Below are positions 45,827 to 64,000 of a DNA stretch of 64,000 nucleotides, piece after piece (position 1 is the first letter of the stretch; the number at the start of each line of letters is the position of its first letter). Below the pieces are notes generated by a model, which was given only the letters and a program-made list of their open reading frames with translations, was not told the DNA's origin and made no database searches. The stretch lies in contig JAFIGS010000017.1 in the NCBI GenBank assembly GCA_017849615.1, positions 186,001 to 250,000 of the forward strand, given 5' to 3'. This DNA is from Pseudolabrys sp. Its GTDB lineage: Bacteria > Pseudomonadota > Alphaproteobacteria > Rhizobiales > Xanthobacteraceae. Made by a program: the position numbers and the translations under genes.

Positions 45827-45841
45827 CGCCTTCCTCGTTCC

Positions 45842-46711
45842 CTAAAACGCCGCCCGATACTCCGGCCGGCCCCGGACGTCAGGCTCGACCACCAGCACTC
45901 GGCCGGCCAGCGGCTCCGCCTCGCGCTCGCTCGCCGACAGCGGCTCGCACGCCGAAGTAATGTAGAGCCGGTCCAGGCCCGGACCTCCGAAGCAGCAGCA
46001 TGTCGGATAGGTTACCGGCAGGTTCAACGCACCGATCGGATCTCCGTTCGGAGCATAGCGCACGACCCGGCCGCCCGCATATTCCGCATTCCAGAGGCAG
46101 CCTTCGGCATCAACGCAACTGCCATCCGGACGCGCCGGCGCCGTGGTTTCTGAGAAGATCGTCCGAGCGCGCTCGAGACCACCTTTGGCATCGTAGTCGC
46201 AGGCCCAGATGGCAAAAGCACGTGTATCGGCGAAATACATGCGGCCTCGCCTGGCATCGAAAGCCAGCGAATTCGGGATGGCCAGACGGCCGGCTTGCTT
46301 CGTGACCGTCAGATCAGGGGCAACGCGGTAGATCGAACCGACCGGCGCATAATCGGTCTCGCGCAGGGTCCCGATCCAGAAATTGCCGTCTGGATCGACG
46401 CGGCCGTCGTTCTTGCGGTGGTCCGCCATGTCCGGCTCCGGATCGATCAGAAACGTCTGCTCCGTTGTATCGGGATCGTAGGCGTAGAGGCCGTCGTCGC
46501 AAGCCAGGATCAGGCCGCCCTGCTCGCGCAGCGCCAGCGAACCGATACGGCGGGCGCGGACGTCGTGCCGGCGGCATTCAGCGGACGCGGGCGCGTAGCT
46601 CCACAGTGCGGGAGTCAGCACGTCCACCCACCACAGGCGGTCAGATCGCTCGCACCAGATCGGGCATTCACCCAACCTCGCCGCTTCGGCTCCGAGAGCC
46701 TCAATGCGCAT
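45842..46711 (-). CDS. SMP-30/gluconolactonase/LRE-family protein
   Basis: 289 residues from the ATG at 46711, inside the end of the LivF-type gene (11-bp overlap). A six-bladed propeller lactonase: LGECPIWCERSDRLWWVDV near the N-terminus has the metal Glu, with NDGRVDPDGNFWIGTL and PNSLAFDARRGRMYFADT following. It may hydrolyse a lactone of the acid imported by this operon; the substrate is not deducible. Confidence 0.87.
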   Translation of the reverse strand: MRIEALGAEAARLGECPIWCERSDRLWWVDVLTPALWSYAPASAECRRHDVRARRIGSLALREQGGLILACDDGLYAYDPDTTEQTFLIDPEPDMADHRKNDGRVDPDGNFWIGTLRETDYAPVGSIYRVAPDLTVTKQAGRLAIPNSLAFDARRGRMYFADTRAFAIWACDYDAKGGLERARTIFSETTAPARPDGSCVDAEGCLWNAEYAGGRVVRYAPNGDPIGALNLPVTYPTCCCFGGPGLDRLYITSACEPLSASEREAEPLAGRVLVVEPDVRGRPEYRAAF

Positions 46712-47438
46712 CGGCCGGCGACGCCTCCTCGACGTGGCCGCCCAGGAAGAGCTGACCGACGCGCGGATCGACCAGCAGGTTGGAAGCCTTGTCGTGCATT
46801 CGGGTTTGTCCAAGTTCGAGCACGATGCCGTAGTCCGACATCGCCAGCGCAGCCTTGGCGTTCTGCTCCACCATCAAAATGGTCACGCCCTGATCGCGCA
46901 GCCGGATCAGCGTCTTGAATACTTCCTGGACCAGCACCGGCGACAAGCCGATCGACGGCTCGTCGATCAGGATCAGCTTGGGATCGAGCAGCAGCGCACG
47001 AGCGACTTCCAGCTGCTTCTGCTGCCCGCCGGACAGTTCGACGGCCTTGCGGTTACGGAATTCGCGCAGCATCGGGAACTGGTCCATGACCGTCTCGATG
47101 CGCTGCTTGACCTTGTCCTGGTCCGGCGCGGTAACGCCGCCAAGCTCGAGATTATGATAGACCGACAACTGCGGCACGATATTGCGGCCCTGCGGGACAT
47201 ACGTGACGCCATGCGCGATCATCTGCCGGGGCGTCTGCCGCGTGACGTCCTGCCCGTCGATCAGCACGTTGCCGGACTCGATCTTGAGCAGACCGAAGAT
47301 AGCCTTGAACACCGTCGATTTGCCGGCGCCGTTCGGCCCGATCATCGTGGTGATAGTACCCTTCGGAATCGAAAAGGACACGCCATTGAGAATCGTGATC
47401 TTGCCGTAACCGCCGACGAGATTTCTGAGTTCGAGCAC
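46701..47438 (-). CDS. Liv-type ABC importer ATPase (LivF-like)
   Basis: 245 residues. Walker A GPNGAGKST, signature LSGGQQKQ, Walker B LILIDEPSIGLSP, and the LivF-type MVEQNAKAALAMSDYGIVLELG. Part of the leftward set LivK-H-M-G-F that serves the dehydroshikimate genes. Confidence 0.92.
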   Translation of the reverse strand: MLELRNLVGGYGKITILNGVSFSIPKGTITTMIGPNGAGKSTVFKAIFGLLKIESGNVLIDGQDVTRQTPRQMIAHGVTYVPQGRNIVPQLSVYHNLELGGVTAPDQDKVKQRIETVMDQFPMLREFRNRKAVELSGGQQKQLEVARALLLDPKLILIDEPSIGLSPVLVQEVFKTLIRLRDQGVTILMVEQNAKAALAMSDYGIVLELGQTRMHDKASNLLVDPRVGQLFLGGHVEEASPADAH

Positions 47439-47442
47439 GGTG

Positions 47443-48189
47443 TCAGCCTCCCAGATAGGCGTCGATCACAGTCTGATTGGACCTGATTTCGTCGGGGGTG
47501 CCTTCGGCGATCACCGCGCCTTCGGCGAGCACGATGATGCGCGTGCACAGGCTCATCACGAATTCCATATTGTGCTCTATGACGACGAATGTCGTGCCAT
47601 GCTCGGCATTGTAGGTGACGAGGCGATCCTTGAGATGCGCGAGCATCGTGAGATTGACGCCGCCGGCCGGCTCGTCGAGCAGCACGATGCTCGGCCCGGC
47701 CATGAAGGCCATTGCGGCATCGACCAGCTTCTGCTGTCCATAGGACAGCGAGCCCGCAAGCTCGTCGCGCAGATGCGTCAGCCTGAAGAAGGCGATCATG
47801 CGTTCCGCGTCTTGCGTCAGCCCGGCATCCGGCGCGCCGAACAGCCGCGACGACATCGTGCCGCGGTGCTCCTGCCCCGCCAGGATGATGTTGTCGAACA
47901 CTGACATGCGCGGAAACACCGAAAGCTGCTGGAAGGTGCGGCCGACGCCGAGCTTGTTGAGGTCCGACGGCCGCATCCCTGATACATCACGGCCGCTCAC
48001 CGCGACCTCCCCCGCATTGGGAACGAGCTGGCCGAGGATGCAGTTGAACAAGGTTGATTTGCCGGAACCGTTCGGGCCGATCAGGCCGAGGATTTCGCCT
48101 TTGTGGACATCGAATGACACCCCGCGCACGGCGCGGATGCCGCCGAAGCGCTTCTCGATGTTGCGGACGGACAGGACGGGTGCGGTCAT
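47443..48189 (-). CDS. Liv-type ABC importer ATPase (LivG-like)
   Basis: 248 residues. Walker A GPNGSGKST, signature LSYGQQK, Walker B IVLLDEPAGGVN, H-loop FVVIEHNMEFVM. Overlaps the LivM-like gene by 4 bp and ends 4 bp before the LivF-like gene. Confidence 0.92.
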   Translation of the reverse strand: MTAPVLSVRNIEKRFGGIRAVRGVSFDVHKGEILGLIGPNGSGKSTLFNCILGQLVPNAGEVAVSGRDVSGMRPSDLNKLGVGRTFQQLSVFPRMSVFDNIILAGQEHRGTMSSRLFGAPDAGLTQDAERMIAFFRLTHLRDELAGSLSYGQQKLVDAAMAFMAGPSIVLLDEPAGGVNLTMLAHLKDRLVTYNAEHGTTFVVIEHNMEFVMSLCTRIIVLAEGAVIAEGTPDEIRSNQTVIDAYLGG

Positions 48190-49169
48190 TTCAGGCTTGC
48201 TCCCTGGCTCATGTCGGCCCGCACCTGCGAACGCGAGAAGAACTTCATCTTGAGCCGTGCGCCGATACCGATCAGGCCTTCGGGCGCATAGATCAGCATG
48301 ACGATCACCAGCACGGCATAGATGATCAGGTAGTAGCCCTCGGTGAAACGCAGCACCTCGGGTAGCAGGATCACCACGCCGGAGCCGAGGAACGGACCGA
48401 AGAACGAGCCGGCGCCGCCGACCACGACCATCAGCAGAATGCGCAGCGAATGACCGACGCCGAACGAGGCCGGTTCGATGAACTGTACCAGCGACGTCAC
48501 CAGCGCGCCGGCGAGCCCGCCATAGGCCGAGCCGATGGCGAAGGCGAGCAGCGTGATACGCCGCGTATCGAGGCCGAGGCTTTCGGCGCGGATCGGGTTC
48601 TCACGCAACGCGCGGAAGGCGCGGCCCCAGGGCGAGCGCACGATGCCCCACATCGCCAGCGCAGCGATCACGGTGACGGCAAGCGTGAAGTAGTAGAACG
48701 GCAGCGGCCGCATGGTGGTGAACAGGCCGAGATCAGGCCGTGGCATGCCCGACAGGCCATAGCTGCCGCCGGTGAGCCACTCTTCATTGCGCAGCACCAG
48801 GAATACCAGCGTGTTGAAGGCGAGCGTGACGAAGGCGAGGAAATGTCCCTTGACGCGCAGCGCCGGATAGCCGAGCAGCAGCCCGACCACGAAACAGGCG
48901 AGGAGCGCTAGGGGCGTGGCGATCAGCCAGTGCCAGCCGGCCAGGGTCAGCAGCGCGGTGACGTAAGCGCCGATTGCCATGAACGACGCCTGCGCCAGCG
49001 AAATCTGGCCGGCGTAGCCGAGCGTGAGATTGAGCCCCATGGCCGCGATGGCGAACACCAGCCACGATGTGAGCACGTAGACGATATAGCTCTTCTGCCC
49101 CAGCGGCGCGGCGACGGCCGCGGCAAGCAGCAGCGCGACAAGCAGCCAGCGCCATTTCCCAGCCATCAT
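48186..49169 (-). CDS. Liv-type ABC importer permease (LivM-like)
   Basis: 327 residues from the ATG at 49169, overlapping the LivH-like stop; the same frame stays open far upstream within livH but that part is arginine-rich shadow. Multiple membrane segments, with GYAGQISLAQASFMAIGAY and the coupling segment RALRENPIRAESLGLDTRR typical of LivM. Confidence 0.92.
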   Translation of the reverse strand: MMAGKWRWLLVALLLAAAVAAPLGQKSYIVYVLTSWLVFAIAAMGLNLTLGYAGQISLAQASFMAIGAYVTALLTLAGWHWLIATPLALLACFVVGLLLGYPALRVKGHFLAFVTLAFNTLVFLVLRNEEWLTGGSYGLSGMPRPDLGLFTTMRPLPFYYFTLAVTVIAALAMWGIVRSPWGRAFRALRENPIRAESLGLDTRRITLLAFAIGSAYGGLAGALVTSLVQFIEPASFGVGHSLRILLMVVVGGAGSFFGPFLGSGVVILLPEVLRFTEGYYLIIYAVLVIVMLIYAPEGLIGIGARLKMKFFSRSQVRADMSQGASLK

Positions 49170-50044
49170 ACCGACCTCCCCTCGGAGGTGCCCATGATGC
49201 CTTGCGGGCGCACCAGAATGATCATGATCAGCAGCACCAGCGGCAACGCCGCGCGGTACTGTGCCGTGACGTAGGTCGCCGTCAGATTGTCGAGCACGCC
49301 GATCAGCAAGCCGCCGACCAGCGCGCCGCGGATCTGGTTGAAGCCGCCGACAATCGCCGCGATGAAGGCGATGAGGCCGATGGTCTCGCCATTGGAAAAC
49401 TTGGCGAGATAGACCGGCGTGATGAGGAAGGCCGCCAGCGAAGCCAACGCCGCGTTGATCAGGAAGGTGTAGAGCACCATGCGCTTGACGTTGACGCCGA
49501 GGATCTCGGCCACCGCCGGGTTCTGCGCCGCCGCCTGCATCGAGCGCCCGGTGCGGGTGCGGTTGAGGAACAGCGTCAGCACGACAACAATGCTCAGCGA
49601 CACGATGAGATTGAGAATGTCCTGGATCGACACCGCGGCGCCGAAGAAGTTCATCGGCGCGTTCGAGAACAGGGCCGGGAACGGCTGCGCCTCGGCGGAA
49701 TAGGACTCCTTGACGGTTTCCTTGAGCAGGATCGCCAGCGCCATGGTGGCGATGATGAGCGTGATGCCGCCATGCGGCAGGATCGGCTCGACGATCAGCT
49801 TCTTGAAGGCGTAGCCCAGAACGAGCATCGACAGCGCGAGCCCGAAGGCCAATGCCAGCCAGAACGGCATGCCGAAAAAGCCCATGCCGATGAGCACGAA
49901 GAACGCCGGCACCATGACGAATTCGCCCTGGGCGAAATTCACCGTCTGCGCGGCCTGCCACACCAGCGCGAAGCCGATCGCCGCCAAAGCGTAGATCGAG
50001 CCGGTCGCGAGGCCGGACAGCAAAACCTGGAGAAACTGGGACAT
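49166..50044 (-). CDS. Liv-type ABC importer permease (LivH-like)
   Basis: 292 residues with about eight membrane segments. Typical LivH blocks are LLSGLATGSIYALAAIGFALVWQ, NFAQGEF, and the coupling segment MQAAAQNPAVAEILGVNVKR. It is encoded 57 bp after the probable stop of the binding-protein gene. Confidence 0.92.
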   Translation of the reverse strand: MSQFLQVLLSGLATGSIYALAAIGFALVWQAAQTVNFAQGEFVMVPAFFVLIGMGFFGMPFWLALAFGLALSMLVLGYAFKKLIVEPILPHGGITLIIATMALAILLKETVKESYSAEAQPFPALFSNAPMNFFGAAVSIQDILNLIVSLSIVVVLTLFLNRTRTGRSMQAAAQNPAVAEILGVNVKRMVLYTFLINAALASLAAFLITPVYLAKFSNGETIGLIAFIAAIVGGFNQIRGALVGGLLIGVLDNLTATYVTAQYRAALPLVLLIMIILVRPQGIMGTSEGRSV

Positions 50045-50100
50045 GCCTGCTCCCGGAATTGACGCCCGCGGTGGCCGAGCCGCCGCGGGCGCAGGTGCGT

Positions 50101-51231
50101 TTAGTTGGCGGGAACGGTGCCGATCACGACCGGCGCGCCGTTCTTGACCTGAACCATGAAGCTCGGACGCGACATTTCACCGGTCTTGTCCCAGCAGGTG
50201 TCGAGCAGGATCTTCGGATGATCCGCCGCCTTGAGGCACAGGCCGAGGATCTTCTTGGAGAAGGCTTCGCCGTCGAGCTTGCCGACCATGTCCGCGACGT
50301 ACTTGGTCGCCCAGGCACCGACATAACCCTTGATCGCGTCATGGGTCGGCTTGCGCTTGAAGGTCTCCTCGAACTTCTTGGCGAAGGCGCCAATGCCCGG
50401 CACGTCGGTTGCCGTTGCGGTCACGCCGACATGGGCGATCGCGCCTTCAGCGGCGCCGCCGGCGAGCTCGATGACCTTGGCTTCCGTCAAGGTCACCTCG
50501 CCGATGAGCGGCATCGGCAGGGCCTGCTTCTTCGCTTCGATAAGGAAGCGCGCCGACTCTTCCTGGTTCATGTAGACGAACACGGCTTCGGGGTTCGCCT
50601 GCTTGAGCTTGGCGACGTCGGAGGCGTAGTCGGTCTGCGCCTGTTCGGAGGCCACGTCTGCGATGACTTCGATGCCGGCCTTTTTCATTTCCTCGACGAA
50701 GACATTGCGGCCGCCTTTGCCGAACTCGTTGTTGACCCAGGCGACGCCGACCTTCTTGGCCTTCAGCGTATCCTTGAAGTACGGCGTCAGCGCCGGAATG
50801 CCCTTCTGCGCGCCCGACGAGGTGCGATAGACGAAGGGGTTACCCTTCTGCACGACGGTCGGCGCTTCCGAGCCGACGAACTGCGGCGTGCTGTTCTGCT
50901 GGGCGACCAGCATGTTGACCAGCGTGGAGCCGGAGTAGACGGTGCCGAGGATGGCGAAGGCGCCGGCGTCGATGGCCTTCTGCACCATCGCGCGCGAGAC
51001 CTGCGGATCGGTCTGCGTGTCGTAGTCGGTGACCTCGACCTTCTTCTTCAGAATGCCGCCCGCGGCGTTGATTTCCTCGACAGCAATCTTGACGCCATCG
51101 CGCCAGTTGGTGCCGGCCGGCGCGCCGGCGCCGGACAATTCAGCCACCATGCCGAGCTTGACGGTGTCCTGGGCATAGGCGGAACCGGCGGCCAGCAGCA
51201 CGGCGGTGATTGCAGCAAGACTCTTCTTCAT
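50101..51231 (-). CDS. Liv-type ABC importer substrate-binding protein
   Basis: 376 residues from the ATG at 51231 with GGGAGG upstream; the frame extends to 51300 without a signal sequence. Sec signal peptide MKKSLAAITAVLLAAGSAYAQ. The mature part is a Peripla_BP_6 (LivK-type) protein: VKLGMVAELSGAGAPAG, GGILKKKVEVTDYDTQTDP. It is preceded by the AroE-like gene and followed by LivH, M, G and F. In this family ligands range from branched amino acids to aromatic and shikimate-type acids; the flanking enzymes favour the latter. Confidence 0.9.
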   Translation of the reverse strand: MKKSLAAITAVLLAAGSAYAQDTVKLGMVAELSGAGAPAGTNWRDGVKIAVEEINAAGGILKKKVEVTDYDTQTDPQVSRAMVQKAIDAGAFAILGTVYSGSTLVNMLVAQQNSTPQFVGSEAPTVVQKGNPFVYRTSSGAQKGIPALTPYFKDTLKAKKVGVAWVNNEFGKGGRNVFVEEMKKAGIEVIADVASEQAQTDYASDVAKLKQANPEAVFVYMNQEESARFLIEAKKQALPMPLIGEVTLTEAKVIELAGGAAEGAIAHVGVTATATDVPGIGAFAKKFEETFKRKPTHDAIKGYVGAWATKYVADMVGKLDGEAFSKKILGLCLKAADHPKILLDTCWDKTGEMSRPSFMVQVKNGAPVVIGTVPAN

Positions 51232-51303
51232 TCGAAACCTCCCTCGATTTTCTGTCGGGCGTTGAGGCACCGTCTCCGGCGTGCCCACCCGATCGTGCAA
51301 GTA

Positions 51304-52149
51304 TCAGGAGACCAGATTTTCAGCCAATTTGCCCTGGCCGGTCGAACACGACGACGGCGCCGCCAGCAGGAAATCCGCAAGCTTTTCGGCCTGCGCCTCG
51401 AACATGTCCGAACCGGTTGCCGTCCGGCAGCCGAGACGCCGCGCAACGGCAATCAGCGGTGGGATCTCCGGCTTGGTGACGACGCAGGCGACGAATTGCT
51501 CCGGAAGCAGGGCCGAAGCGTCCACCGGCACGGGGTCGCCGGCATTCATACCCATTGGCGTGGCGTTGGCAACCAGATCGAAACCGGCCGGGTCGGCGCT
51601 GCCGGCGGCCACGCGTCCGGGGAAGCGCGCCGAAAGCTTTGAAACGATCTCGTCGCGGCGCGCGATATCGGTATCGTGGATCGCGAGTCTGGCGGCGCCT
51701 CGCACGAGAATCTCGAGCGCAATCGCCGCTCCGGCGCCGCCGCAGCCGACCAGCAGCGCGGACTTGTCCGCGACCGCGAAACCCCGCCGCTCGATGCCGT
51801 CGAGGAAGCCGGCGCCGTCGCTGTTGTCGCCAGACCAGCCATCTGGCGTGCGTCGAAGAACGTTGACGGCAGCAGCGAACCGCGCCCGTTCGGTCGTGAA
51901 CGCGCAGCAGACCAGCGAGGCGCGCTTGTGCGGCACGGTGACAAGGACGCCGCCCGCGTTTCTGACGGCGTAAAGCGACGCAAGAAGAGGAGAAAGGCCG
52001 TCTGCGGCAACCTGCATTGGAATGCAAACCGCATCGACGCCGCGCCGTGAAAAGATCGCGCTGATGGCCGTCGGCGATTTTACCTGAGCGACGGGATCGC
52101 CGACGATCGGAAAGATCGCGGTTGCCCCGGTTGGACGGCCATTTTCCAT
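51304..52149 (-). CDS. aroE: Shikimate/quinate dehydrogenase family protein (AroE paralogue)
   Basis: 281 residues from the ATG at 52149. The substrate domain has the catalytic Lys in VTVPHK and the Asp in NSDGAGF; the NAD(P) loop is LLVGCGGAGAAIALE. The usual pair of serines that hold the shikimate carboxylate (SxSP) reads VKSP, so only the second Ser remains, suggesting an altered substrate. With the dehydroshikimate dehydratase and Liv importer in the same leftward stretch, a catabolic role (quinate or shikimate to dehydro-acid) is more likely than aromatic synthesis. The symbol denotes the family, not proof of biosynthetic function. Confidence 0.82.
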   Translation of the reverse strand: MENGRPTGATAIFPIVGDPVAQVKSPTAISAIFSRRGVDAVCIPMQVAADGLSPLLASLYAVRNAGGVLVTVPHKRASLVCCAFTTERARFAAAVNVLRRTPDGWSGDNSDGAGFLDGIERRGFAVADKSALLVGCGGAGAAIALEILVRGAARLAIHDTDIARRDEIVSKLSARFPGRVAAGSADPAGFDLVANATPMGMNAGDPVPVDASALLPEQFVACVVTKPEIPPLIAVARRLGCRTATGSDMFEAQAEKLADFLLAAPSSCSTGQGKLAENLVS

Positions 52150-52258
52150 CGCATGTCCCGGCCGAACCATCCTGCGCGCCGGTCTCCCCCGCTTGTTATT
52201 GGGCAGGACGGTAGCGAAACGGGCACAATGCTGCGACTACTATTTTTTGCCGCTTCCG

Positions 52259-53663: not shown

Positions 53664-54929
53664 ATGCGCAAGACTCTACTTGGCGCTGTCGCGCTCGTCG
53701 CACTTGCTTTGCCGGGCTCGGCTCTCGCTCAGAGCAATAACACCATCAAGATCGGCATTCTGGTCGCTCTCGAAGGCGCCTTCGCCACCGGCGGCCAGGA
53801 CGGCGTCCGCAACGTCGAAATGGCTCTCAAGCAGATCAACCACACCGTTGCCGGCAAGAAGATCGAAACCGTCGTCGCGCCGACGGACACCAAGCCCGAT
53901 ACGACCGTGCGCCAGGCGCGCAAACTCATCGAGCAGGACAAGGTCGACATCATCATCGGACCGCTCTCCGGTTCGGAAGGCATCGCCATGCGCGATTTCG
54001 CCAAGACCATCCCCGACAAGGTGGTGATCAACGGCGGGTCCGGCGCACTCGAAACCACCTGGGTCGATCCGGCGCCGAATTTCTACCGCTTCAATCTCGA
54101 CGGCGCGCAGTGGGGCTATGGCCTCGGCAATTACGTCGTGAAGACGAAGGGCTGGAAGAAAGTGGCCACGATCGCGGCCGACTACTCGTTCGGCTACACG
54201 AACTTCATGGGTTTCGCGATCGACTACTGTAAATCGGGCGGCGATATCGTGCAGCGCTTCTGGCAACCGCTCGGTCAATCGGATTTCGGCGGCATCATCG
54301 CGCAGTTGCCGAACGACGTTGACGCGATCTATCTCGGCCTCGGCGGCACAGACGCGATCAACTTTCTCAACCAGTATCAACAGGCCGGCGAAAAGACCCG
54401 CCTGATCGGCGGCACCATCATGGCGGACCAGACCGTTCTGACCGCGCGTGGCCGTGCCAAGGAGGCTCTGAAAGGCACGCCGACGTCCGGCCCCTTCGCC
54501 TCGGACAGCACCGATCCGGCCTGGGTTTCGTATGTGAAGCTCTATCAGGACTCCTTCCCCGCCGCCCAGCGCCTGCCTTCGCCGTCGCTGTTCGGTCTCG
54601 GCTACTACGTCCCGACCATTGCCGCCATCAAGGCGCTTGAAGAAGTCGGCGGCGATCTGTCGAACGGGCAAGCCAAGTTCAAGGCCGCGCTGAACAAAAT
54701 TCAGCTCGACAGCCCCGTCGGCAAGCTCACGCTGAACGAGAACCGCCAGGCGACCGGCACCGTCTTCGTCACCGAAGTGGTCGACGGGTCGGACGGCAAC
54801 ATGACCAATAAGATGGTCGCCAAGACCGAGAACGTGAACCAGACGCTTGGCATGACGCCCGAACAGTATCGCGCCATCGGACTGCCATCACGCGATGTGG
54901 TCGATTGCGCCAAGATGCGCGGCGGCTGA
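53664..54929 (+). CDS. Liv-type ABC importer substrate-binding protein, second system
   Basis: 421 residues from the ATG at 53664, with AGGGAGG upstream; the frame is open to 53553 without a signal sequence. Signal peptide MRKTLLGAVALVALALPGSALAQ. Peripla_BP_6 fold: IKIGILVALEGAFATGGQDG, IIIGPLSGSEGIAMRDF, TIAADYSFGYTNFMGF. It stands apart from its likely permeases (57200 onward), separated by a terminator-like hairpin, an iron-ADH-like gene and an AraC gene. Ligand unknown. Confidence 0.9.
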   Translation: MRKTLLGAVALVALALPGSALAQSNNTIKIGILVALEGAFATGGQDGVRNVEMALKQINHTVAGKKIETVVAPTDTKPDTTVRQARKLIEQDKVDIIIGPLSGSEGIAMRDFAKTIPDKVVINGGSGALETTWVDPAPNFYRFNLDGAQWGYGLGNYVVKTKGWKKVATIAADYSFGYTNFMGFAIDYCKSGGDIVQRFWQPLGQSDFGGIIAQLPNDVDAIYLGLGGTDAINFLNQYQQAGEKTRLIGGTIMADQTVLTARGRAKEALKGTPTSGPFASDSTDPAWVSYVKLYQDSFPAAQRLPSPSLFGLGYYVPTIAAIKALEEVGGDLSNGQAKFKAALNKIQLDSPVGKLTLNENRQATGTVFVTEVVDGSDGNMTNKMVAKTENVNQTLGMTPEQYRAIGLPSRDVVDCAKMRGG

Positions 54930-55038: not shown

Positions 55039-56097
55039 ATGACACTGATCGGCTATCTCACGCGCACCCATTTCGCCGAAGCTGCGATCGAGGACGCGCT
55101 TCCCGAGGAAGTGGGCCCACTCGCCCGCGCGCTGGTACTTGTCGATGACGAACCGGGCGGCGCAATCGCCTGCACCCGCGTGCAGGAAGCGCTCGACCAC
55201 ACAACGATCAGTCTGGCGCGCACAGATGCTACCACACCGCATCGCGAAGCAATCCCCCGTATCCTGCAAGCTCTGGGCGATATCCAGACCCGAACGCTGA
55301 TTGCGATTGGCGGATCCGCGGCTATCGGCCAGGCGAGACTTGCTGCGGAGCAGGCAATACGGCGAGGCGAAACGCTCACATTGATCGCCGTGCCGGCAGC
55401 CCTTTGCGATTTCGGGCTCGCCCGTCGCGTTCGTCAGGCGCAAGGCCAGCCCGTCGCCTGTCCACGCCCCGACCAGGTCATCGCCGATCCGACGGTGCTC
55501 GAGCTGGTGCCGCCTCGCCGCCTCGCCGCAGCGGCGATGGAAGTGCTTGTCCATGCCATCGAGGCCTATGCGAGCCCCGTTTATCATCCGCCGGCCGATG
55601 CGCTCGCGCTCGAGGCGACGAGGCGGCTGACGCGGTGGCTGCCTGTTGCGCTCGCCTCGCCCGAGCCCCATCGTGAAGCATTGCGCGAACTGATGGCTGC
55701 TGCCCTGACGGCGGGCCTTGCCCTCGAAAAGGCTGTGGGCGGTGTGGACGCGCTCGCGCATCCGATCAAAGTCGAACTTGGACCCGATGTGCTGCACGGC
55801 GATCTACACGCGCCATTGATGGCCGCCATGGCCGACTTCAACACCGAAGCCGTCGGCGAACGTTACGCCACGATGGCCAAAACCTTCGCTCGATCGAGGC
55901 GGGAGCCACATTTAAGCACCACAATCGGGGCCTTCGCACGTGCGATAGGTTTGCCGGCGACCTTGCGAGAGACGGGCATCGACCCGGCCCGTTTCGATCG
56001 CTTTGCCGAGATGGCGGCCAACGACCCCGGCGCGCTCGCCAATCCGCGGCGGCTCACGCCAGGCGATTGCCGCCGCATTCTCGAGGCCGCCTGGTGA
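55039..56097 (+). CDS. Degenerate iron-containing alcohol dehydrogenase-like protein
   Basis: 352 residues from the ATG at 55039. The fold of the Fe-ADH / maleylacetate reductase family is recognisable from VLVHAIEAYASPVYHPPADALALEA and GGVDALAHPIKVELG. The metal set D-x3-H...H...H reads Glu168-x3-His172...His241...His253, with Asp changed to Glu. The NAD-binding GGGSxxDxAK reads IGGSAAIGQAR, losing the Asp and Lys, and the usual TxxGTGSE block is VPAALCDFG. It may bind a different cofactor or have lost dehydrogenase activity. Encoded between the binding protein and the AraC gene of the second Liv-type system. Confidence 0.75.
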   Translation: MTLIGYLTRTHFAEAAIEDALPEEVGPLARALVLVDDEPGGAIACTRVQEALDHTTISLARTDATTPHREAIPRILQALGDIQTRTLIAIGGSAAIGQARLAAEQAIRRGETLTLIAVPAALCDFGLARRVRQAQGQPVACPRPDQVIADPTVLELVPPRRLAAAAMEVLVHAIEAYASPVYHPPADALALEATRRLTRWLPVALASPEPHREALRELMAAALTAGLALEKAVGGVDALAHPIKVELGPDVLHGDLHAPLMAAMADFNTEAVGERYATMAKTFARSRREPHLSTTIGAFARAIGLPATLRETGIDPARFDRFAEMAANDPGALANPRRLTPGDCRRILEAAW

Positions 56098-56211: not shown

Positions 56212-57048
56212 ATGAGTATCGCTCACGCCGTCGCACATGGCGCGTTCGGACGTGCCTGCCTCTACGAACTCGACCGTCCGATGGTGCCGCATGCCCATCG
56301 CGAAGGTCATCTGATCTTCCATGTCAGCGGACCGGTCGCCAGCGTCGTCATCGATGGCAAGACGTTGCCGCTCACGCCGCGGAGCGCCACGGCCATCAGC
56401 CCGTGGCAGCCGCATTACTTTTCGCCTGTCAACCACAACGAACCGACGCTGACGCTCGTTCTTTACATCCGGCCCGGCTGGTTCGTGGATGCGAGCCACA
56501 CCGCCTTCGAGATCCTGCGCTTCGGCCGCGCCGGCGTCGAGATGAGCGACCATATTGCCCGCCTCGCCGCCGAAACGGCGCGCCTGCTGGCCTCTCATGG
56601 CGGAAGTGACGGCTCGTTCGAGGATCGGCTGAGCGCACTCACGCAGGCAGCCTTCGATCAGACCTGGCAGTGGCAAAGTCCCGGCGACAGACCGGCCGCG
56701 CAATGCTCGGGACTGCGCGATTTTCGCCTGAGGCGGGCGATAAACATTCTGAGCGAGCGGCTCGGCGAACCGATCGATCTCGCGGAGATTTCCCGTAATG
56801 CCGGTCTTTCACGACCGCACTTCTTCAAGCTGTTTCGCGAGCAGATGGGCCTGCCGCCGACGATCTTCCTCAACGCCCTGCGCATGGAGCGCGCCATCGA
56901 GCGGCTGGCGATAAGCAGCGAAACCGTTTCGGAAATCGGTTTCGATCTCGGCTTCGCGACCCCGGCGAGCTTCTCTCGCTTTTTCATCGCCAACGGCGTG
57001 GTGCCGCCGAGCGCCTACCGGCGCAGCGTCGCGGCGCTCACGCATTGA
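56212..57048 (+). CDS. AraC-family transcriptional regulator
   Basis: 278 residues. An N-terminal cupin-like sensor (VPHAHREGHLIFHVSGP) precedes the two helix-turn-helix AraC domain at about 170-275 (IDLAEISRNAGLSRPHFFKLFREQMGLPP and VSEIGFDLGFATPASFSRFF). It lies directly before the second LivHMGF set on the same strand; direct repeats in the gap after it are candidate sites. Confidence 0.9.
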   Translation: MSIAHAVAHGAFGRACLYELDRPMVPHAHREGHLIFHVSGPVASVVIDGKTLPLTPRSATAISPWQPHYFSPVNHNEPTLTLVLYIRPGWFVDASHTAFEILRFGRAGVEMSDHIARLAAETARLLASHGGSDGSFEDRLSALTQAAFDQTWQWQSPGDRPAAQCSGLRDFRLRRAINILSERLGEPIDLAEISRNAGLSRPHFFKLFREQMGLPPTIFLNALRMERAIERLAISSETVSEIGFDLGFATPASFSRFFIANGVVPPSAYRRSVAALTH

Positions 57049-57083: not shown

Positions 57084-57199
57084 ATAAGAGACGGTCGGGC
57101 TAATGAACAGACGGTGGGGAAAAGACAAGCCGAGAACTTCAAACTAGCCTTTCCGGAGTGGCGAAGGTCCGCCACGGGAAGCTGCCAGGCCGTTCTCAG

Positions 57200-58216
57200 A
57201 TGGACAAGTTCATCGCGCGCTATCCGATCTGGAGCCTGATCATCGTTGTTGTGGTCGCTGTGTTCCTGTGGCTGGTGTTCGCGCCGTGGCCGCCGGAACT
57301 GGTGGCCAGCTGGGGCCGCAAGCAGATCTTCCTGAACGGGCTGCTGGGCGGCATCACCCTCGGCGCGCTCTATTTCCTCGTCGCGGCCGGCTTCACGCTG
57401 ATCTTCGGTCTGATGCGCGTCGTCAACCTCGCGCACGGTTCGCTGTTCCTGATCGGCGGCTATGTCGGCTACGAGGTCGCCATCGCCTCGGATTCCTGGC
57501 TGCTGGCGTTTCCGGTCGTCTTCGTCGTCGTCGCGCTCATCGGCGTGCTGATGCAGCATTTCATCTTCTCGAAGATGGAAGGCGAAGAGCTGCGCCAGAC
57601 CCTTGTGAGCATCGGGCTGTCCATCGTGTTCGCCGACCTCATGTTGTGGTGGTGGGGCGGGCAGTCCTACACGATCCTCGCCCCGCAATTCCTGCAGGGG
57701 CCGGTGCAGCTCCCCATCGTCAATACCGTCAACGAGGCGACCGGCGTCACCACGTGGCTGCGCTACCCGGCCGTGCGCGTCTGGATTCTCGCCGCGGCGA
57801 TCGTCATCGGCGTCGCCATGTGGCTGGTGCTCAACCGCACCGCGCTCGGCATGCTGATCCGCGCCGGCGTCGACGATCGCGAAATGCTGGCGGCCTCCGG
57901 CGTGCGCATCAAGCTGCTGTTTCTGGCGGTGTTTGCCTTTGGCGCGGGGCTTGCCGGCGTCGCCGGCATTGTCGGCGCCACCTTCCAGTCGCTGTCGCCG
58001 GGCGAGGATACGCGCTTTCTGCTGTCGAGCCTCGTCGTCGTGATCGTCGGCGGGATGGGATCGATCGCCGGCGCCGCGCTCGGCGCGCTGATCATCGGCG
58101 TCGCCGAGCAGATGGGTTTCGTCTACGCGCCGACCTATTCGATCGTCTTCACGTTCCTGATCATGGCCGCGGTGCTGGCCTTCCGGCCGCAGGGCCTGCT
58201 CGGCGCGAGGCGATAG
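57200..58216 (+). CDS. Liv-type ABC importer permease (LivH-like), second system
   Basis: 338 residues from the ATG at 57200. Membrane protein with an extra N-terminal hydrophobic segment (WSLIIVVVVAVFLWLVF) before the LivH core GLLGGITLGALYFLVAAGFTLIFGLMRVVNLAHGS. Coupling region: LIRAGVDDREMLAASGVRIK. It starts the second permease/ATPase set, which ends in the LivF/Tm-1 fusion. Confidence 0.9.
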   Translation: MDKFIARYPIWSLIIVVVVAVFLWLVFAPWPPELVASWGRKQIFLNGLLGGITLGALYFLVAAGFTLIFGLMRVVNLAHGSLFLIGGYVGYEVAIASDSWLLAFPVVFVVVALIGVLMQHFIFSKMEGEELRQTLVSIGLSIVFADLMLWWWGGQSYTILAPQFLQGPVQLPIVNTVNEATGVTTWLRYPAVRVWILAAAIVIGVAMWLVLNRTALGMLIRAGVDDREMLAASGVRIKLLFLAVFAFGAGLAGVAGIVGATFQSLSPGEDTRFLLSSLVVVIVGGMGSIAGAALGALIIGVAEQMGFVYAPTYSIVFTFLIMAAVLAFRPQGLLGARR

Positions 58217-58219
58217 GCC

Positions 58220-59278
58220 ATGTCCGTCGCCGACAACCTCCAGCGCCTCACCGGCCCTTACGAGCAGCGCTCGTGGCTGCAGCGCATTCCCGCCGCCTGG
58301 TGGGCCGTGGCCGTCATTCTCCTGTTCATGCCAGTGGTGGCCAACGACTTCTGGCTGTTCCAGGTCATGGGCTGGACCTTCATCCTCGGCATGATCGGGC
58401 TCAGCCTGATGTTTCTCGCCGGCTATGGCGGCATGGTCAGCCTGCTGCAGATGACGGTGGCCGGCGTCGCCGGTTACATGGTCGCGATCCTCGGCCCGTC
58501 CGGCGCCAATGTCAGTCTCGGCCTCGCCTGGTGGGTGGTGATCCCGGCGGCCTTCCTGATCGCCGCGATTTTCGCCACCATCTCCGGCGCCCTCGCCGTC
58601 CGCACCGACGGCATCTACACGATCATGATCACGCTCGCGATCGCGGCGGCCTTTTTCTATTTCACGCGGCAGAACTACTCGATCTTCAACGGCTATTCCG
58701 GGTTCAACCTCGTGCTGCCGCCGAAACTGTTCGGCGTGAATTGGCGCGACCCCATGGCGTTCTATTACCTGTCGCTCGCCTGCGCCACGCTGTGCTACGG
58801 CGCGGTCGTCTATATCTCGCGCTCGCCATTCGGCCTCGCTTTGCAGGGCGTGCGCGACAATCCGCGCCGCATGGCGGCGCTCGGCTTCAATGTCACCGCG
58901 CATCGCGTCGCCGCCTACGCGCTGGCGAGCATCTTCGCCTCGACCGGCGGTATCCTTCTCGTGTGGCAGAATGCCCAGATCGCGCCGGGCACGATCGGCA
59001 TCTCGGCGGCGATCGACGTGCTGGTCGTTGCGGTGGTCGGCGGCTTACGGCGCCCGCTCGGGCCCTTCATCGGCGCGCTGATCTATGTGCTGCTGCAGGT
59101 GTTCTCCGCCGACATTCTTGGCCTCTTCGGCTTCTCCGCCGATCGCTTCAAGCTGATCATCGGCATCGGCTTCCTGGCGATCGTGCTGTTCTCCCCTGAC
59201 GGCGTGCTGGCTCTGTGGGACCGCTGGCGCGCGCGCGTTGACGCGCGCAAGGCCGCCGAGACGCGAGGCGCGCCATGA
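58220..59278 (+). CDS. Liv-type ABC importer permease (LivM-like), second system
   Basis: 352 residues, 3 bp after the LivH-like gene. Membrane segments, LAGYGGMVSLLQMTVAGVAGYM and the coupling segment GVRDNPRRMAALGFNVTAHR are typical of LivM. It overlaps the LivG-like start by 4 bp. Confidence 0.9.
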   Translation: MSVADNLQRLTGPYEQRSWLQRIPAAWWAVAVILLFMPVVANDFWLFQVMGWTFILGMIGLSLMFLAGYGGMVSLLQMTVAGVAGYMVAILGPSGANVSLGLAWWVVIPAAFLIAAIFATISGALAVRTDGIYTIMITLAIAAAFFYFTRQNYSIFNGYSGFNLVLPPKLFGVNWRDPMAFYYLSLACATLCYGAVVYISRSPFGLALQGVRDNPRRMAALGFNVTAHRVAAYALASIFASTGGILLVWQNAQIAPGTIGISAAIDVLVVAVVGGLRRPLGPFIGALIYVLLQVFSADILGLFGFSADRFKLIIGIGFLAIVLFSPDGVLALWDRWRARVDARKAAETRGAP

Positions 59279-60078
59279 ACGCTCCCGTCGCACCTGCCCG
59301 CATGAACCAGATCGGCGCCGGCCAGGCCGGCTCCGGCAATGCGCTCGAATTGCGCGGCATCACCAAGATGTTCGGCGCGCTGGCCGCCATTTCCGATGTG
59401 ACCTTGTCGGTGCGGCCGGGCGAGCGCCGCGCCGTGCTCGGCTCGAACGGCGCCGGCAAGACGACCCTGTTCAATTGCATCACCGGCGATTTCCTGCCCA
59501 CCGCCGGGCTCATCCGTTTCTTCGGCGAGGACGTCACCGTCTTCCCGCCGCATGAGCGTATCCGTCGCGGCCTGCGGCGCACCTATCAGATCTCGTCGCT
59601 GTTCGCCGGCCTGAGCGTCATCGACAATGTCTATCTCGCCTGCGTCGGCGTTTCGCGCAACCGCTTCTCCCTGATCCGGCCCCGGCCCGACGATGCCCTC
59701 ATGCACGCCGCGAACATGCTGGTCGACGCCGTGCATCTCACCGCCGAAAAGAACCGCCTGGTCGGCGAACTGGCCTATGGCCAGCAGCGGCAGCTCGAGA
59801 TCGCGCTGGCGCTCTCGGGCGCGCCGCGCTTCGTGCTGTTCGACGAGCCGGCCGCCGGCCTGTCGCCCACCGAGCGGACCGATCTCATTCATATCCTGAC
59901 CGCGCTGCCGAACCACATCGGCTACATCATCATCGAGCACGACATGGACGTCGCGTTGCGGGTCGTCGAGAGCGTCACGATGATGCACAACGGCCGCATC
60001 TTCAAGGAAGGCCGGCCCGAGGACATCGAGGACGATCCGGAAGTCCAGGAGCTGTATCTCGGAGGCGGTCATGGCTGA
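59275..60078 (+). CDS. Liv-type ABC importer ATPase (LivG-like), second system
   Basis: 267 residues. Walker A GSNGAGKTT, signature LAYGQQRQ, Walker B FVLFDEPAAGLSP, H-loop IIIEHDMDVALRV. About 20 residues precede the ABC domain. It overlaps the fused LivF gene by 8 bp. Confidence 0.92.
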   Translation: MNAPVAPARMNQIGAGQAGSGNALELRGITKMFGALAAISDVTLSVRPGERRAVLGSNGAGKTTLFNCITGDFLPTAGLIRFFGEDVTVFPPHERIRRGLRRTYQISSLFAGLSVIDNVYLACVGVSRNRFSLIRPRPDDALMHAANMLVDAVHLTAEKNRLVGELAYGQQRQLEIALALSGAPRFVLFDEPAAGLSPTERTDLIHILTALPNHIGYIIIEHDMDVALRVVESVTMMHNGRIFKEGRPEDIEDDPEVQELYLGGGHG

Positions 60079-62302
60079 GCGCTCGCCGCGTCCGACCGCT
60101 TCCTCAACGCCCGTGCTGCAGTTGCAGGGCGTCAACGTCTTCTACGGACGAAGCCATGCCGTGCAGGGCGTGGACCTGTCGCTGCATTCCGGCGTTCTTT
60201 CCGTCGTCGGCCGCAACGGCATGGGCAAGACCACGATGTGCAAGGCCATCATGGGCCTCGTGCCGGTGTCGTCCGGGTCGATCCGCTTCATGGGCGAGGA
60301 ACTGACCGGCCGCGCGCCGACCGAGATCGCGCGCATGGGCGTCGGCTATGTGCCGCAAGGGCGTCGTCTGTGGCGCTCGCTCACGGTGGACGAACATCTG
60401 CGTGTCATGTCGCGTGGCAATGGCCCCTGGACGCCGGACCGCATCTACGAAACGTTCCCACGCCTCGCCGAACGCCGTCGCAATGGCGGCGGCGAGCTGT
60501 CCGGCGGCGAGCAGCAAATGCTGGCGATCAGCCGCGCACTGCTGATGAATCCGCGCCTGCTGATCATGGACGAGCCGACCGAAGGCCTTGCCCCGGTCAT
60601 CGTCAGCCATGTCGAGGAAACGCTGGTGCGGCTCGCCGCGGAGAGCGACGTTTCCATCCTCGTCATCGAGCAGAACATCGGCGTCGCCACGCAGATGTCA
60701 GACCCCGTGGCCATCATGGTCAACGGCCGCATTCATCGCGTGATCGCCTCGCAGGCGCTGGCGGCCGATCGCGACCTGCAGCAGCGCCTGCTCGGCGTCG
60801 GCCGTCACGGCCACGACCGGACCGAAGAAGCCGACCCGACGACGGCCACCCCCGCGCGCCAGCCGGCCGCCACCATGCCGCAAGGGCCGACACGGATTTA
60901 CATGGCCAACCCGGTGTTGCCGACGCGCTGGTCGCAGGATGTCCCGGCGGCGCGCATCGAAGGGGCGGCGCGCACCGTGTCGCGGCCCACGCTTGCGACG
61001 CTCGACGGCCGCCGCGTCGGCGACGTCTCGCCGCTGGCCGGCCGCGCGCCGCAGGAGCCGCATGTCATCATCGCCGGCACGCTCGACACCAAAGGCGACG
61101 AGCTTCGCTACATCCGCGACATCATCAAGGTCGCCGGGCTCCGCACGCGGCTGGTCGATCTCTCGACGGTCGGCCGCAACCAGGGCGCCGATGTCTCGGC
61201 GCAGGAAGTCGCCCTCGCCTCGCCGGCCGGCTCCGCCGGCATTGCCTCCGGCGATCGCGGCACGGCCGTGGCGGCGATGACGGAAGCGTTCCGCGCCTGG
61301 GTCGGCAGGCAGCAGAATGTCGCCGGCATCATTTCCGCGGGCGGCTCCGGCGGCACGGCGATCGCAACGGCCGGCATGCAGACGCTGCCGGTCGGCGTAC
61401 CGAAGGTCATGATCTCGACCATGGCGGCCGGCAATGTCGCCGCTTATGTCGGGCCGACCGACATCACCATGATGCACTCGGTCACCGACGTGCAGGGCCT
61501 CAACCGCGTCTCGCGCGCGGTGCTCGGCAACGGCGCCAACGCCATGGCGGCGATGGCGCGCTGCTGGATCGAGCAGAACGCGCCGGGGCAGAGCCCGCGA
61601 GCGGACGCCGATCGTCCGCTGGTCGGCATGACCATGTTCGGCGTTACGACACCGGCGGTGCAGCAGGTCGCCAGGCTCATCGAGAAGGAATGGGAGCCGC
61701 TGGTCTTCCATGCCACCGGCATCGGTGGGCGATCGATGGAGAAGCTCATCGACTCCGGGCTGATCCGCGGCGTGATCGATGTCTCAACCACCGAGATTTG
61801 CGACATGATGATGGGCGGCATTCTGCCCGCCACCGAAGACCGCTTCGGCGCCGTCATTCGCACACGCCTGCCTTATGTCGGTTCGGTGGGCGCGCTCGAC
61901 ATGGTGAACTTCGGCCCGCGCGACACGGTGCCGGCGCATTACAGCAACCGCAATCTCTACCCGCACAATCCGCAGGTCACGCTGATGCGCACGACCGTGG
62001 AGGAGAACCGGCGCATGGGGCGCTGGATCGGCGACAAGCTGAACCAGATGGAAGGCCCCGTCCGCTTCCTCATTCCGGAAGGCGGCGTGTCGGCACTCGA
62101 CGCCCCTGGCCAGGCCTTCTGGGATCCCCAAGCGGACGCCGCCTTGTTCGGCGCCATCACCGAGACGGTGCGCATCACCGCGACGCGGCAGATCATTCGC
62201 CTTCCGCACCACATCAACGATCCGGCTTTCGCCGCCGCTTTGGCGCAGCACTTCCGCGCCTTGCACCAGAGCCGCGCGCGCGGCGCATCCGGCAGGACCT
62301 GA
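60071..62302 (+). CDS. Fusion: LivF-like ABC ATPase with C-terminal Tm-1-like (UPF0261) ATP-binding domain
   Basis: 743 residues in one uninterrupted frame. Residues 1-245 are a LivF-like ATPase: Walker A GRNGMGKT (47-54), signature LSGGE (143-147), Walker B LLIMDEP (163-169), VIEQN (198-202). A proline/alanine-rich linker (about 250-325) follows. Residues 330-735 are a complete UPF0261 / Tm-1-like domain, with IIAGTLDTKGDELRYIRDII (333-352), SAGGSGGTAIA (422-432) and VDVSTTEICD. In tomato Tm-1 this domain binds ATP and is followed by a TIM-barrel domain; here the barrel is the next gene. LivF proteins normally end near 240 residues, so the added domain is unusual. Its role in or beside transport is unknown. 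Confidence 0.88.
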   Translation: MAERSPRPTASSTPVLQLQGVNVFYGRSHAVQGVDLSLHSGVLSVVGRNGMGKTTMCKAIMGLVPVSSGSIRFMGEELTGRAPTEIARMGVGYVPQGRRLWRSLTVDEHLRVMSRGNGPWTPDRIYETFPRLAERRRNGGGELSGGEQQMLAISRALLMNPRLLIMDEPTEGLAPVIVSHVEETLVRLAAESDVSILVIEQNIGVATQMSDPVAIMVNGRIHRVIASQALAADRDLQQRLLGVGRHGHDRTEEADPTTATPARQPAATMPQGPTRIYMANPVLPTRWSQDVPAARIEGAARTVSRPTLATLDGRRVGDVSPLAGRAPQEPHVIIAGTLDTKGDELRYIRDIIKVAGLRTRLVDLSTVGRNQGADVSAQEVALASPAGSAGIASGDRGTAVAAMTEAFRAWVGRQQNVAGIISAGGSGGTAIATAGMQTLPVGVPKVMISTMAAGNVAAYVGPTDITMMHSVTDVQGLNRVSRAVLGNGANAMAAMARCWIEQNAPGQSPRADADRPLVGMTMFGVTTPAVQQVARLIEKEWEPLVFHATGIGGRSMEKLIDSGLIRGVIDVSTTEICDMMMGGILPATEDRFGAVIRTRLPYVGSVGALDMVNFGPRDTVPAHYSNRNLYPHNPQVTLMRTTVEENRRMGRWIGDKLNQMEGPVRFLIPEGGVSALDAPGQAFWDPQADAALFGAITETVRITATRQIIRLPHHINDPAFAAALAQHFRALHQSRARGASGRT

Positions 62303-62305
62303 CCT

Positions 62306-63190
62306 ATGCCCCGTTTCTCGCGAACCGATCTCCTTGCCCGCTACCGCACCATGATCGCGCGCGGCGAGCCGATCGTCGGCGGCGGCGCCGGCACCGGCCT
62401 GTCCGCCAAATGCGAGGAAGCCGGCGGCATCGACCTCATCGTCATCTACAATTCCGGCCGCTTCCGCATGGCCGGGCGCGGCTCGCTGTCCGGCATGATG
62501 CCCTATGGCGATGCCAACGCCATCGTCATGGACATGGCCGGCGAAGTGCTGCCGGTGGTCAAGAACACGCCGGTCATCGCCGGCGTTTGCGGCACAGATC
62601 CGTTCCGCTCGATGGATGTCTTCCTCGACGAGGTGAAGCGCATCGGCTTCTCCGGCGTGCAGAACTTCCCGACCGTCGGCCTGATCGACGGCGTGTTCCG
62701 CAAGAACCTCGAAGAAACCGGCATGGGCTACGGCCTGGAGGTCGAGATGGTGGCGCTCGCCCGCGCCAAGGATCTCCTCACCACGCCCTACGTGTTCTCC
62801 GAAGCCGATGCCGCCGCCATGGCCAAGGCCGGCGCCGACATCATCGTCTGCCATCTCGGCCTCACCACCGGCGGCTCGATCGGCGCCGAAACCGCGCTCA
62901 AGCTCGCCGACTGCCCCGCGCTCGTCGATGGCTATGCGCAGGCCGCGCTGGCGGTGAAGCCGGACGCCATCATTCTCGTCCACGGCGGCCCGGTCGCCGA
63001 GCCGCCGGATGCCGACTTCATCATGAGGAACACGCGGCACTGCCACGGCTTCTACGGCGCCTCTTCCATGGAGCGCCTGCCCGTCGAGTCCGCGATCCGC
63101 GACCAGACGAGGGCTTTCAAGACCATCGGCCGCAAGGGCGGCACAGACAACCCGGCGGAGACAACCCGCCGATCAAGCGCCACCCGGTAA
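62306..63190 (+). CDS. PEP-hydrolase-like TIM-barrel protein (Tm-1 C-terminal domain homologue)
   Basis: 294 residues of the TIM-barrel family annotated as phosphoenolpyruvate hydrolase-like. Blocks: [71 protein letters not shown], and [11 protein letters not shown] near the end. It starts 3 bp after the fusion gene stops, so the two halves of a Tm-1-like protein are made from neighbouring cistrons. No enzymatic reaction is established for this family with certainty. Confidence 0.87.
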
Positions 63191-63220
63191 AGCCGGCGCA
63201 GCGGACAGGAGAAATGTGAC

Positions 63221-64000
63221 ATGTCGGGGCAATTGATCGGATCCCTCATCCTCTGGCTCATCGTGGCCGTGATCGTCATCGCGATCATCGTCTATCTGGT
63301 GAACTGGCTCTATCGCCGCTCCTCGAAGGAGGTGTCCTTCGTCCGAACCGGTCTGTTCGGCGAAAAGGTGGTGATCAACGGCGGCGCCTTCGTGCTGCCG
63401 ATCATCCACGACGTCACGCCGGTCAACATGAACGTCCTGCGCATGGCGGTCACCCGCGCCAATGACGAGGCGCTGATCACCCGCGACCGGATGCGCGTCG
63501 ATATCGACGCCGAATTCTATGTGCGCGTGCGTCCGCAGCGCGAAGCCGTATCCGTCGCCGCCGCCACGCTCGGCCGCCGCACGCTGCAGCCCGACCAGCT
63601 CAACACCTTGCTCTCCGGCCGGCTCGTCTCGGCGCTGCGTTCGATCGCGTCCGAAATGACCATGGAGGAAATGCACGAGAAGCGCGGCACTTATGTCCTG
63701 CGCGTCAAGGAATCCGCCGCGGAGGCCTTCGACCAGAACGGCCTGGAGCTGGAAAGCGTCGCCATCACCAATCTCGACCAGACCGATCTGCAATATTTCA
63801 ACCCATCCAACCGCTTCGACGCCGAAGGTCTGACGCGCATCATCGGCGAGATCGAGGAAAAGCGGAAGCTGCGCAACGACATCGAACAGGATGCGATGAT
63901 CAAGATTCGCACCCGCAACCTCGAGGCCGAGCGGCTGTCGCTCGATATCGAGCGCGACAGCGAGTCCGCCAAACTCGAACAACAACGCGAGATCGAGATC
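63221..64000 (+). CDS. Flotillin-like SPFH/band 7 membrane protein (3' end outside window)
   Basis: The frame opens at the ATG 63221 and is still open at the right edge (260 codons). An N-terminal membrane segment (about 6-28, IGSLILWLIVAVIVIAIIVYLV) is followed by an SPFH domain (VSFVRTGLFGEKVVINGGAFVLPIIHDVTPVN, MRVDIDAEFYVRV), then a charged helical region (IGEIEEKRKLRNDIEQDAMIK) that begins the flotillin coiled coil. It resembles YqiK/FloT. It follows the TIM-barrel gene by 30 bp with AGGAG upstream; whether it belongs functionally to that operon is unclear. Confidence 0.88.
   Translation, partial: MSGQLIGSLILWLIVAVIVIAIIVYLVNWLYRRSSKEVSFVRTGLFGEKVVINGGAFVLPIIHDVTPVNMNVLRMAVTRANDEALITRDRMRVDIDAEFYVRVRPQREAVSVAAATLGRRTLQPDQLNTLLSGRLVSALRSIASEMTMEEMHEKRGTYVLRVKESAAEAFDQNGLELESVAITNLDQTDLQYFNPSNRFDAEGLTRIIGEIEEKRKLRNDIEQDAMIKIRTRNLEAERLSLDIERDSESAKLEQQREIEI

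Follow-up and report, generated by a model that had tools for sequence, protein, structure and literature searches.

The DNA studied here is a 64,000-nucleotide window of contig JAFIGS010000017.1 (Pseudolabrys sp.), and coordinates are positions within this window unless stated otherwise. Near its 3′ end, an open reading frame (ORF) of 743 amino acids (aa), which starts with ATG, joins a LivF-type ATP-binding cassette (ABC) ATPase to a UPF0261 (Tm-1-like) domain, and is separated by 3 bp from the start codon of a gene encoding a PEP_hydrolase-type TIM barrel. Pfam places ABC_tran at residues 32 to 170 (expectation value [E] 5e-26), the N-terminal UPF0261 domain at 330 to 498 (E 8e-58) and UPF0261_C at 515 to 731 (E 1e-88). 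An initial annotation made from the sequence had described a complete LivF and a complete UPF0261 protein in one frame, with ATPase motifs at residues 47-54, 143-147 and 163-169 and a PEP-hydrolase-like TIM barrel as the next cistron, 3 bp on; the fused frame and the motif positions hold, and the ORFs and the PF09370 match establish the barrel as the next gene. The features concerned are as follows.

60071..62302, plus strand: LivF-UPF0261 fusion protein (ORF, Pfam, NCBIfam, relatives, alignment and tree)
60071..60805, plus strand: LivF-type ATPase half, about residues 1-245 (motif residues invariant in 36 fusions)
60806..61057, plus strand: linker rich in Ala, Pro and Glu, 79 residues by domain-hit edges
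60923..60931, plus strand: [TN]RW linker motif, T285-R286-W287 (102 of 102 linkers)
61058..62302, plus strand: UPF0261/Tm-1-type domain, residues 330-743 (Pfam, 3wry match, family columns)
62306..63190, plus strand: PEP_hydrolase-type TIM barrel, 294 aa, ATG start (PF09370 at residues 10-274, E 6e-128)

The fusion is real and is no artefact. The codon-position GC content of its frame (0.51 at the second position and 0.87 at the third) follows the pattern of a real gene, and when a single genome of each species was scanned, 403 stretches proved to encode a relative of the query, which in some cases may correspond to just one half; the best 80 of these were retained. Both halves are encoded in one ORF in 79 of these 80, in addition to the window, the exception (L050) being a 3.9-kb contig-edge piece that matches residues 70 to 743; as these 80 are the loci that match the fusion best, they attest its reality and say nothing of its frequency. 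A further 20 loci, picked for a long frame and a strong score, are all single-frame as well, and the continuity of the frame between 60820 and 61060, which the initial annotation had singled out for checking, is evident from the relatives, the linker being open in 102 of 102. The explanation that an assembly or sequencing error joined two genes, in whose favor nothing was found, is therefore counted as refuted, its probability being negligible. A 993-aa frame (60238-63219) which runs across the fusion and barrel genes was rejected as a high-GC shadow, the Pfam matches lying in other frames.

The motifs of the ATPase half are intact: the Walker A, Q-loop, LSGGEQ and Walker B residues are invariant in 36 aligned fusions (window included), as are the stretches G47-K53, L143-E147 and D167-E168. 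The best NCBIfam ATPase models, UrtE (222 bits; cut-off, 286) followed by LivF (148 bits; cut-off, 441), both score below their cut-offs, and the domain is thus LivF-like and an equivalog of neither. The label “LivF-type” is a fair one, given an ABC_tran domain with Walker A, LSGGE signature and Walker B in a string that also encodes LivH, LivM, LivG and a binding protein of type I. At the H-loop position the sequence is E-Q-N, as is usual for LivF.

The UPF0261 domain scores well above the Pfam gathering threshold of 27 bits (PF06792, 196 bits; PF23189, 296 bits) and the NCBIfam cut-off for NF002673 (592 against 520 bits), while the tomato Tm-1 fragment of PDB entry 3wry matches residues 328 to 729 (E 3e-95), representing nearly the whole of this 431-residue N-terminal fragment. 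The barrel matches PF09370 over its full length (model positions 3-267 of 267; 426 bits against a gathering score of 33.8) and has a solved relative in 2p10 (Mll9387; E 4e-120); one database record calls a bacterial homologue a “TIM-barrel signal transduction protein.” In a comparison of 87 UPF0261 domains (37 separate and 50 fused, six divergent rows having been dropped first), 86 columns were at least 95% conserved, and the eight columns which are at least 95% conserved in the separate domains and fall below 80% in the fused ones display exclusively mild changes (A/S, T/S, T/A, G/A, V/I and L/I). The fused domain retains the conserved residues of its family, with no decay. A relationship of UPF0261 to four-carbon acid-sugar kinases was also considered. 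Plant Tm-1 (a virus-resistance protein of tomato; PDB 3wry and 3wrw) contains the same UPF0261 domain, its second half being a TIM-barrel domain named TBST in PMC5028733. In the plant protein UPF0261 is joined to the barrel, whereas here its fusion partner is an ABC ATPase and a separate gene specifies the barrel; the likeness implies no link to viruses in the present case. UPF0261 and barrel in one chain were not encountered among the fetched loci longer than 6 kb, and a fusion of this kind, which long stop-to-stop frames had at first suggested for L169 and L171, was rejected, these being shadow frames with the domains in different frames.

The records of the 80 best relatives bear the names Pseudolabrys, Bradyrhizobium, Bosea, Phreatobacter, Rhabdaerophilum and others mostly of the Hyphomicrobiales, one being titled Frankia, and 35 aligned fusions are 61 to 91% identical to the window protein. 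Among 297 genomes of the order, 108 contain a UPF0261 match and 49 (that of the window included) a strong match in a frame of at least 700 aa; all 18 of those 49 genomes that were fetched at 20 kb carry the fusion, while two genomes with long frames and weaker scores (G150 and G205) proved, when fetched, to harbor separate UPF0261 genes. Within the genus group of the window, 4 of 24 genomes reach E 1e-100 or better, including one in which the match is a contig-edge piece that spans residues 376-743, and the fusion system is thus accessory in this group. Beyond the order, the fusion is present in G310 and G598, of the same class, and on a Variovorax megaplasmid whose record names the protein “ABC transporter permease.” Many soil bacteria with kinship to Bradyrhizobium carry the fusion. 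The initial annotation had considered that such an architecture might already be common and characterized: common it is, while no paper on an ABC-UPF0261 fusion was found in the open-access literature searched, a scope outside which subscription journals mostly lie. As far as can be told, every building block is known, and the combination and its link to flotillin are undescribed.

The genes surrounding the fusion are listed below; the locus designated L120 extends past the window end, and a window position equals the L120 position plus 59999.

53664..54929, plus strand: substrate-binding protein, type I periplasmic, Peripla_BP_6 (Pfam E 1e-57; relatives 4zpj and 4ey3)
55039..56097, plus strand: iron-type alcohol dehydrogenase family (ADH_Fe_C, E 4e-24)
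56212..57048, plus strand: AraC-family regulator (HTH_18, E 1e-17)
57158..58216, plus strand: LivH-type permease (BPD_transp_2, E 3e-29)
58220..59278, plus strand: LivM-type permease (BPD_transp_2, E 3e-27)
59275..60078, plus strand: LivG-type ATPase (ABC_tran, E 8e-25)
63221..64000, plus strand: flotillin, cut by the window end (Flot, E 2e-33; Band_7, E 1e-17)
L120:5826-6263 and 6265-6717: two SRPBCC proteins, after the flotillin
L120, about 6716-7543: flavin adenine dinucleotide (FAD) subunit
L120, about 7551-8036: 2Fe-2S subunit
L120:8048-9793 and 9795-10823 (window-equivalent 68047-69792 and 69794-70822): molybdenum hydroxylase large subunit, two genes
L120:10826-11710: CoxD-like AAA protein
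L120:11707-12819: CoxE-like VWA protein
L120:12901-13749: metallo-beta-lactamase-fold protein

The frame of the iron-type dehydrogenase is open from 54895, position 55039 being a chosen start codon. The LivG and fusion genes overlap by 8 bp, and direction and spacing suggest that the whole string may be expressed as a single transcript. The full flotillin (L120:3222-5819; 865 aa) carries Flot and Band_7/SPFH domains and is the only PF15975 (Flot-domain) match of the genome; no match to a solved structure was obtained for it at E 0.001. The first of the molybdenum large-subunit genes ends in a proline-rich tail. Where the initial annotation had pictured a Tm-1-type module tied to an importer, the importer and the barrel were correctly seen, while the flotillin, SRPBCC proteins and molybdenum hydroxylase were missed because the window ends there.

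To define what travels with the fusion, 19 seed families were mapped onto all frames, and matches were counted on the strand of the UPF0261 gene. Among the 79 fused relatives on loci longer than 6 kb, LivG was present in 79, LivM and the TIM barrel in 78 each, LivH and flotillin in 77 each, the AraC-family regulator in 76, the substrate-binding protein in 73, SRPBCC and a molybdenum subunit in 71 each, and the iron-type dehydrogenase in 20, flank lengths differing such that misses toward the ends are partly missing sequence. The conserved association with LivH/M/G and the barrel, which had been proposed as a check, is thus evident. In a second sample of 20 fused and 20 separate UPF0261 loci, picked from genome searches by frame length, LivH/M/G accompany the fusion on the same strand in all 20 cases, and the fused and separate loci differ in flotillin (20 versus 0), SRPBCC (20 versus 7), molybdenum subunit (11 versus 0) and LivF (20 versus 5), the barrel being found in 18 and 17, respectively. 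Flotillin is likewise present in both fused loci on plasmid records and in none of the six separate ones. These counts indicate a core of importer, UPF0261, flotillin and SRPBCC, with a nearly constant barrel and variable catabolic genes.

The 20 fused loci fall into two classes: class I (11 loci; the class of the window) has the molybdenum hydroxylase, and class II (9 loci) lacks it. The class II locus L163 harbors genes for an FAA hydrolase, an alpha/beta hydrolase and an amidohydrolase upstream, and the Variovorax string (L113) contains the same gene types, while L164 differs in part; the best models for class II neighbors include HpaG-like and PcaD-like ones, all below cut-off. In the Variovorax string, an SRPBCC domain is fused to a zinc-type alcohol dehydrogenase (L113:14231-15703).

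A plasmid of Thermomicrobium roseum (L114) shares the order LivH, LivM, substrate-binding protein, LivG, LivF, UPF0261 and barrel, with molybdenum hydroxylase genes further on as in the class of the window; in contrast to the fusion loci, its LivF and UPF0261 genes are separate, 12 bp apart, and no flotillin or SRPBCC match is present in the stretch. Separate neighboring LivF and UPF0261 genes lie 12 to 34 bp apart in L169, L171 and L173 as well as in T. roseum, and share a reading frame in two of these four (L169 and T. roseum), an arrangement which plausibly represents the pre-fusion state. On a quick tree of 93 UPF0261 domains (50 fused and 43 separate), in which several branches are long, the fused domains are strongly grouped: their label requires 4 changes, whereas 500 shuffles needed 31 on average and never as few as 4. 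Because the starred branches alone force 3 changes, L113 and L150 lying outside the main fused group, a single origin with later losses and two or three origins of the fusion are all possible.

The linker measures 72 to 113 aa over 102 fusions (by domain-hit edges) and carries the motif [TN]RW exactly once in all 102, against a mean of 1.2 and a maximum of 4 linkers with the motif in shuffles, many of the linkers being from close relatives. The tryptophan of the motif is the sole one of the linker in 100 of the 102, and the motif is kept even in the most divergent linkers (L113, L150 and L165); it was not seen at the LivF tails or UPF0261 heads of five unfused loci (L169, L171, L173, L114 and L176). 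These observations bear on the explanation that the fusion is a tether only, whereby adjacent genes merged and the fusion fixes the stoichiometry and co-expression of what is otherwise an ordinary cytosolic pathway enzyme. The closely spaced gene pairs, two of them in frame, offer a natural route to such a merger; however, a linker of 72 to 113 aa in place of a gap of 12 to 34 bp is more than read-through would yield, the tryptophan-bearing motif is invariably present while the remainder of the linker varies, and the fusion has been maintained across two classes of operon and in many family codes. We consequently consider a mere tether to be rather improbable.

We tentatively propose, with confidence a little short of even, that the system is a Liv-type importer whose motor incorporates a catabolic enzyme, forming an import-and-catabolism assembly at the membrane. 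The substrate-binding protein together with LivH, LivM, LivG and the LivF half would import a compound that may be an aromatic or N-heteroaromatic acid, while UPF0261, hung from LivF by the linker, and the separate TIM barrel would constitute a single ATP-using enzyme unit, the barrel presumably being the catalyst and UPF0261 its ATP-using partner, which acts on the imported compound or on an intermediate derived from it. Flotillin and the SRPBCC proteins may gather the importer and the UPF0261-barrel pair at the membrane, joined in the class of the window by the molybdenum hydroxylase, and the [TN]RW motif may serve as a docking peptide. A more specific version, in which UPF0261 and the barrel, clamped by [TN]RW within a flotillin-scaffolded importer, use ATP on the entering cargo and pass it to a nicotinate-dehydrogenase-like hydroxylase, is offered as speculation that is unlikely to hold in full.

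An alternative function for the fused domain is that of a C-terminal control domain which, with the barrel, would bind substrate or product as it accumulates and thereby slow the hydrolysis of ATP. Such trans-inhibition by C-terminal domains is known for ModC, MalK and MetN, and UPF0261 is similarly placed C-terminal to an ATPase, although the likeness is one of position alone: the control domains of those proteins are small, whereas UPF0261 comprises two domains and 400 residues, and has a gene family and a partner of its own. The barrel family is itself used as an input module, as all eight long barrel ORFs scanned (8/8) display the architecture PEP_hydrolase-Sigma54_activat-HTH_8, that is, a barrel fused to a sigma-54 activator and a Fis-type helix-turn-helix domain. 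These regulator barrels represent a second barrel at L115, L150, L169, L171, L173, L174, L175 and L180, adjoining separate UPF0261 genes in seven loci and a fusion in one (L150). Conversely, in Vibrio and Gluconobacter the pair occurs with no ABC importer gene listed alongside, in a gene table that is incomplete, and motor control would accordingly not be its task there. Free barrels also retain polar residues which the regulator barrels have lost: in an alignment of 120 free-standing and 8 regulator barrels, in which many free rows are near-copies, 129 columns are at least 97% conserved in the free barrels, of which 36 are kept and 48 changed in all 8 regulators. The changed columns include Y48, S50, R58, Q119, H183, H226 and E256, while all 8 regulators retain R54, E145 and R257. 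Such a pattern would be expected of a catalytic free barrel and a regulator copy confined to binding, and leans that way; it is no proof, as the regulator barrels are also more distant and many of the free rows are near-copies. A control function is, on balance, doubtful. The initial annotation had suggested a metabolite sensor or an enzyme acting at the membrane: the tie of the Tm-1-type pair to the importer, covalent and by gene order, stands and is conserved, whereas between enzyme and sensor, residue conservation leans toward an enzyme.

With regard to the substrate of the proposed import-and-catabolism assembly, the best solved match of the binding protein is 4zpj, labelled “extracellular ligand-binding receptor,” and other solved relatives are 4ey3, 4evq, 3sg0, 4dqd and 4f06, which we take to be aromatic-acid binding proteins. 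Both halves of the molybdenum large subunit have nicotinate dehydrogenase (3hrd) as their best solved match, an enzyme which shares the two-piece large subunit with FAD and 2Fe-2S subunits alongside; here, in contrast, the genes lie beside an importer, flotillin and CoxD/E-like genes, and the likeness derives from sequence alone. The large subunit is split in all 71 loci in which both halves were found. The genome carries many other large subunits of the xanthine oxidase family (15 other MoCoBD_2 matches), all in frames of at least 766 aa, long enough to be unsplit. Together with the HpaG-like and PcaD-like best models of class II neighbors, these matches hint that the imported compound may be an aromatic or N-heteroaromatic acid. 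A maleylacetate reductase role for the iron-type dehydrogenase was not supported, its best NCBIfam model being 4-hydroxybutyrate dehydrogenase at 137 of 500 bits, below cut-off, and its solved matches being generic; a hydroxyquinol pathway is, therefore, unsupported, and the absence of a ring-cleavage enzyme among the ten downstream proteins scanned also counts against it.

Several observations weigh against the proposed assembly. The matches of the binding protein extend, albeit more weakly, to leucine- and urea-binding proteins, and sugar-type importers, sugar-type dehydrogenases and Gfo/Idh or xylose-isomerase-like genes are further companions of the UPF0261-barrel pair, which is thus not tied to aromatics as such. 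The sigma-54 barrel regulator beside the L150 fusion indicates that sensing by the barrel fold is at hand. Two of the 20 fused loci (L155 of G247 and L162 of G105) have no barrel in their stretch, the sole barrel of each genome lying elsewhere, near another UPF0261 gene. Because flotillin follows the fused lineage, its presence in 20 of 20 fused and 0 of 20 separate loci does not amount to 20 independent events. ATP use by UPF0261 is presumed from its database name, “Tm-1-like ATP-binding,” and no biochemical activity of any UPF0261 or free PEP_hydrolase protein was found in the papers searched.

If the more specific, speculative version is correct, the system would exemplify vectorial (group-translocation-like) metabolism by an ABC importer, its cargo being modified at the membrane's inner face, and would supply a native chemistry for the family of plant Tm-1. 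Bacterial flotillin is usually described as a general membrane organizer; the string gives it a dedicated neighborhood, as the only Flot-domain protein of the genome sits there. No native function appears to have been established for the UPF0261/Tm-1 family, UPF0261 having been called uncharacterized in 2016 (PMC5028733) and the Tm-1 N-terminal domain in 2025 (PMC12432084); a bacterial string with importer, hydroxylase and flotillin opens the question to genetics in soil bacteria that are harmless.

A second Liv-type transporter set with a binding protein, recognized by eye, is encoded on the minus strand at 45002-52170, divergent from the fusion string, and includes a shikimate-dehydrogenase-like gene whose models score below cut-off.

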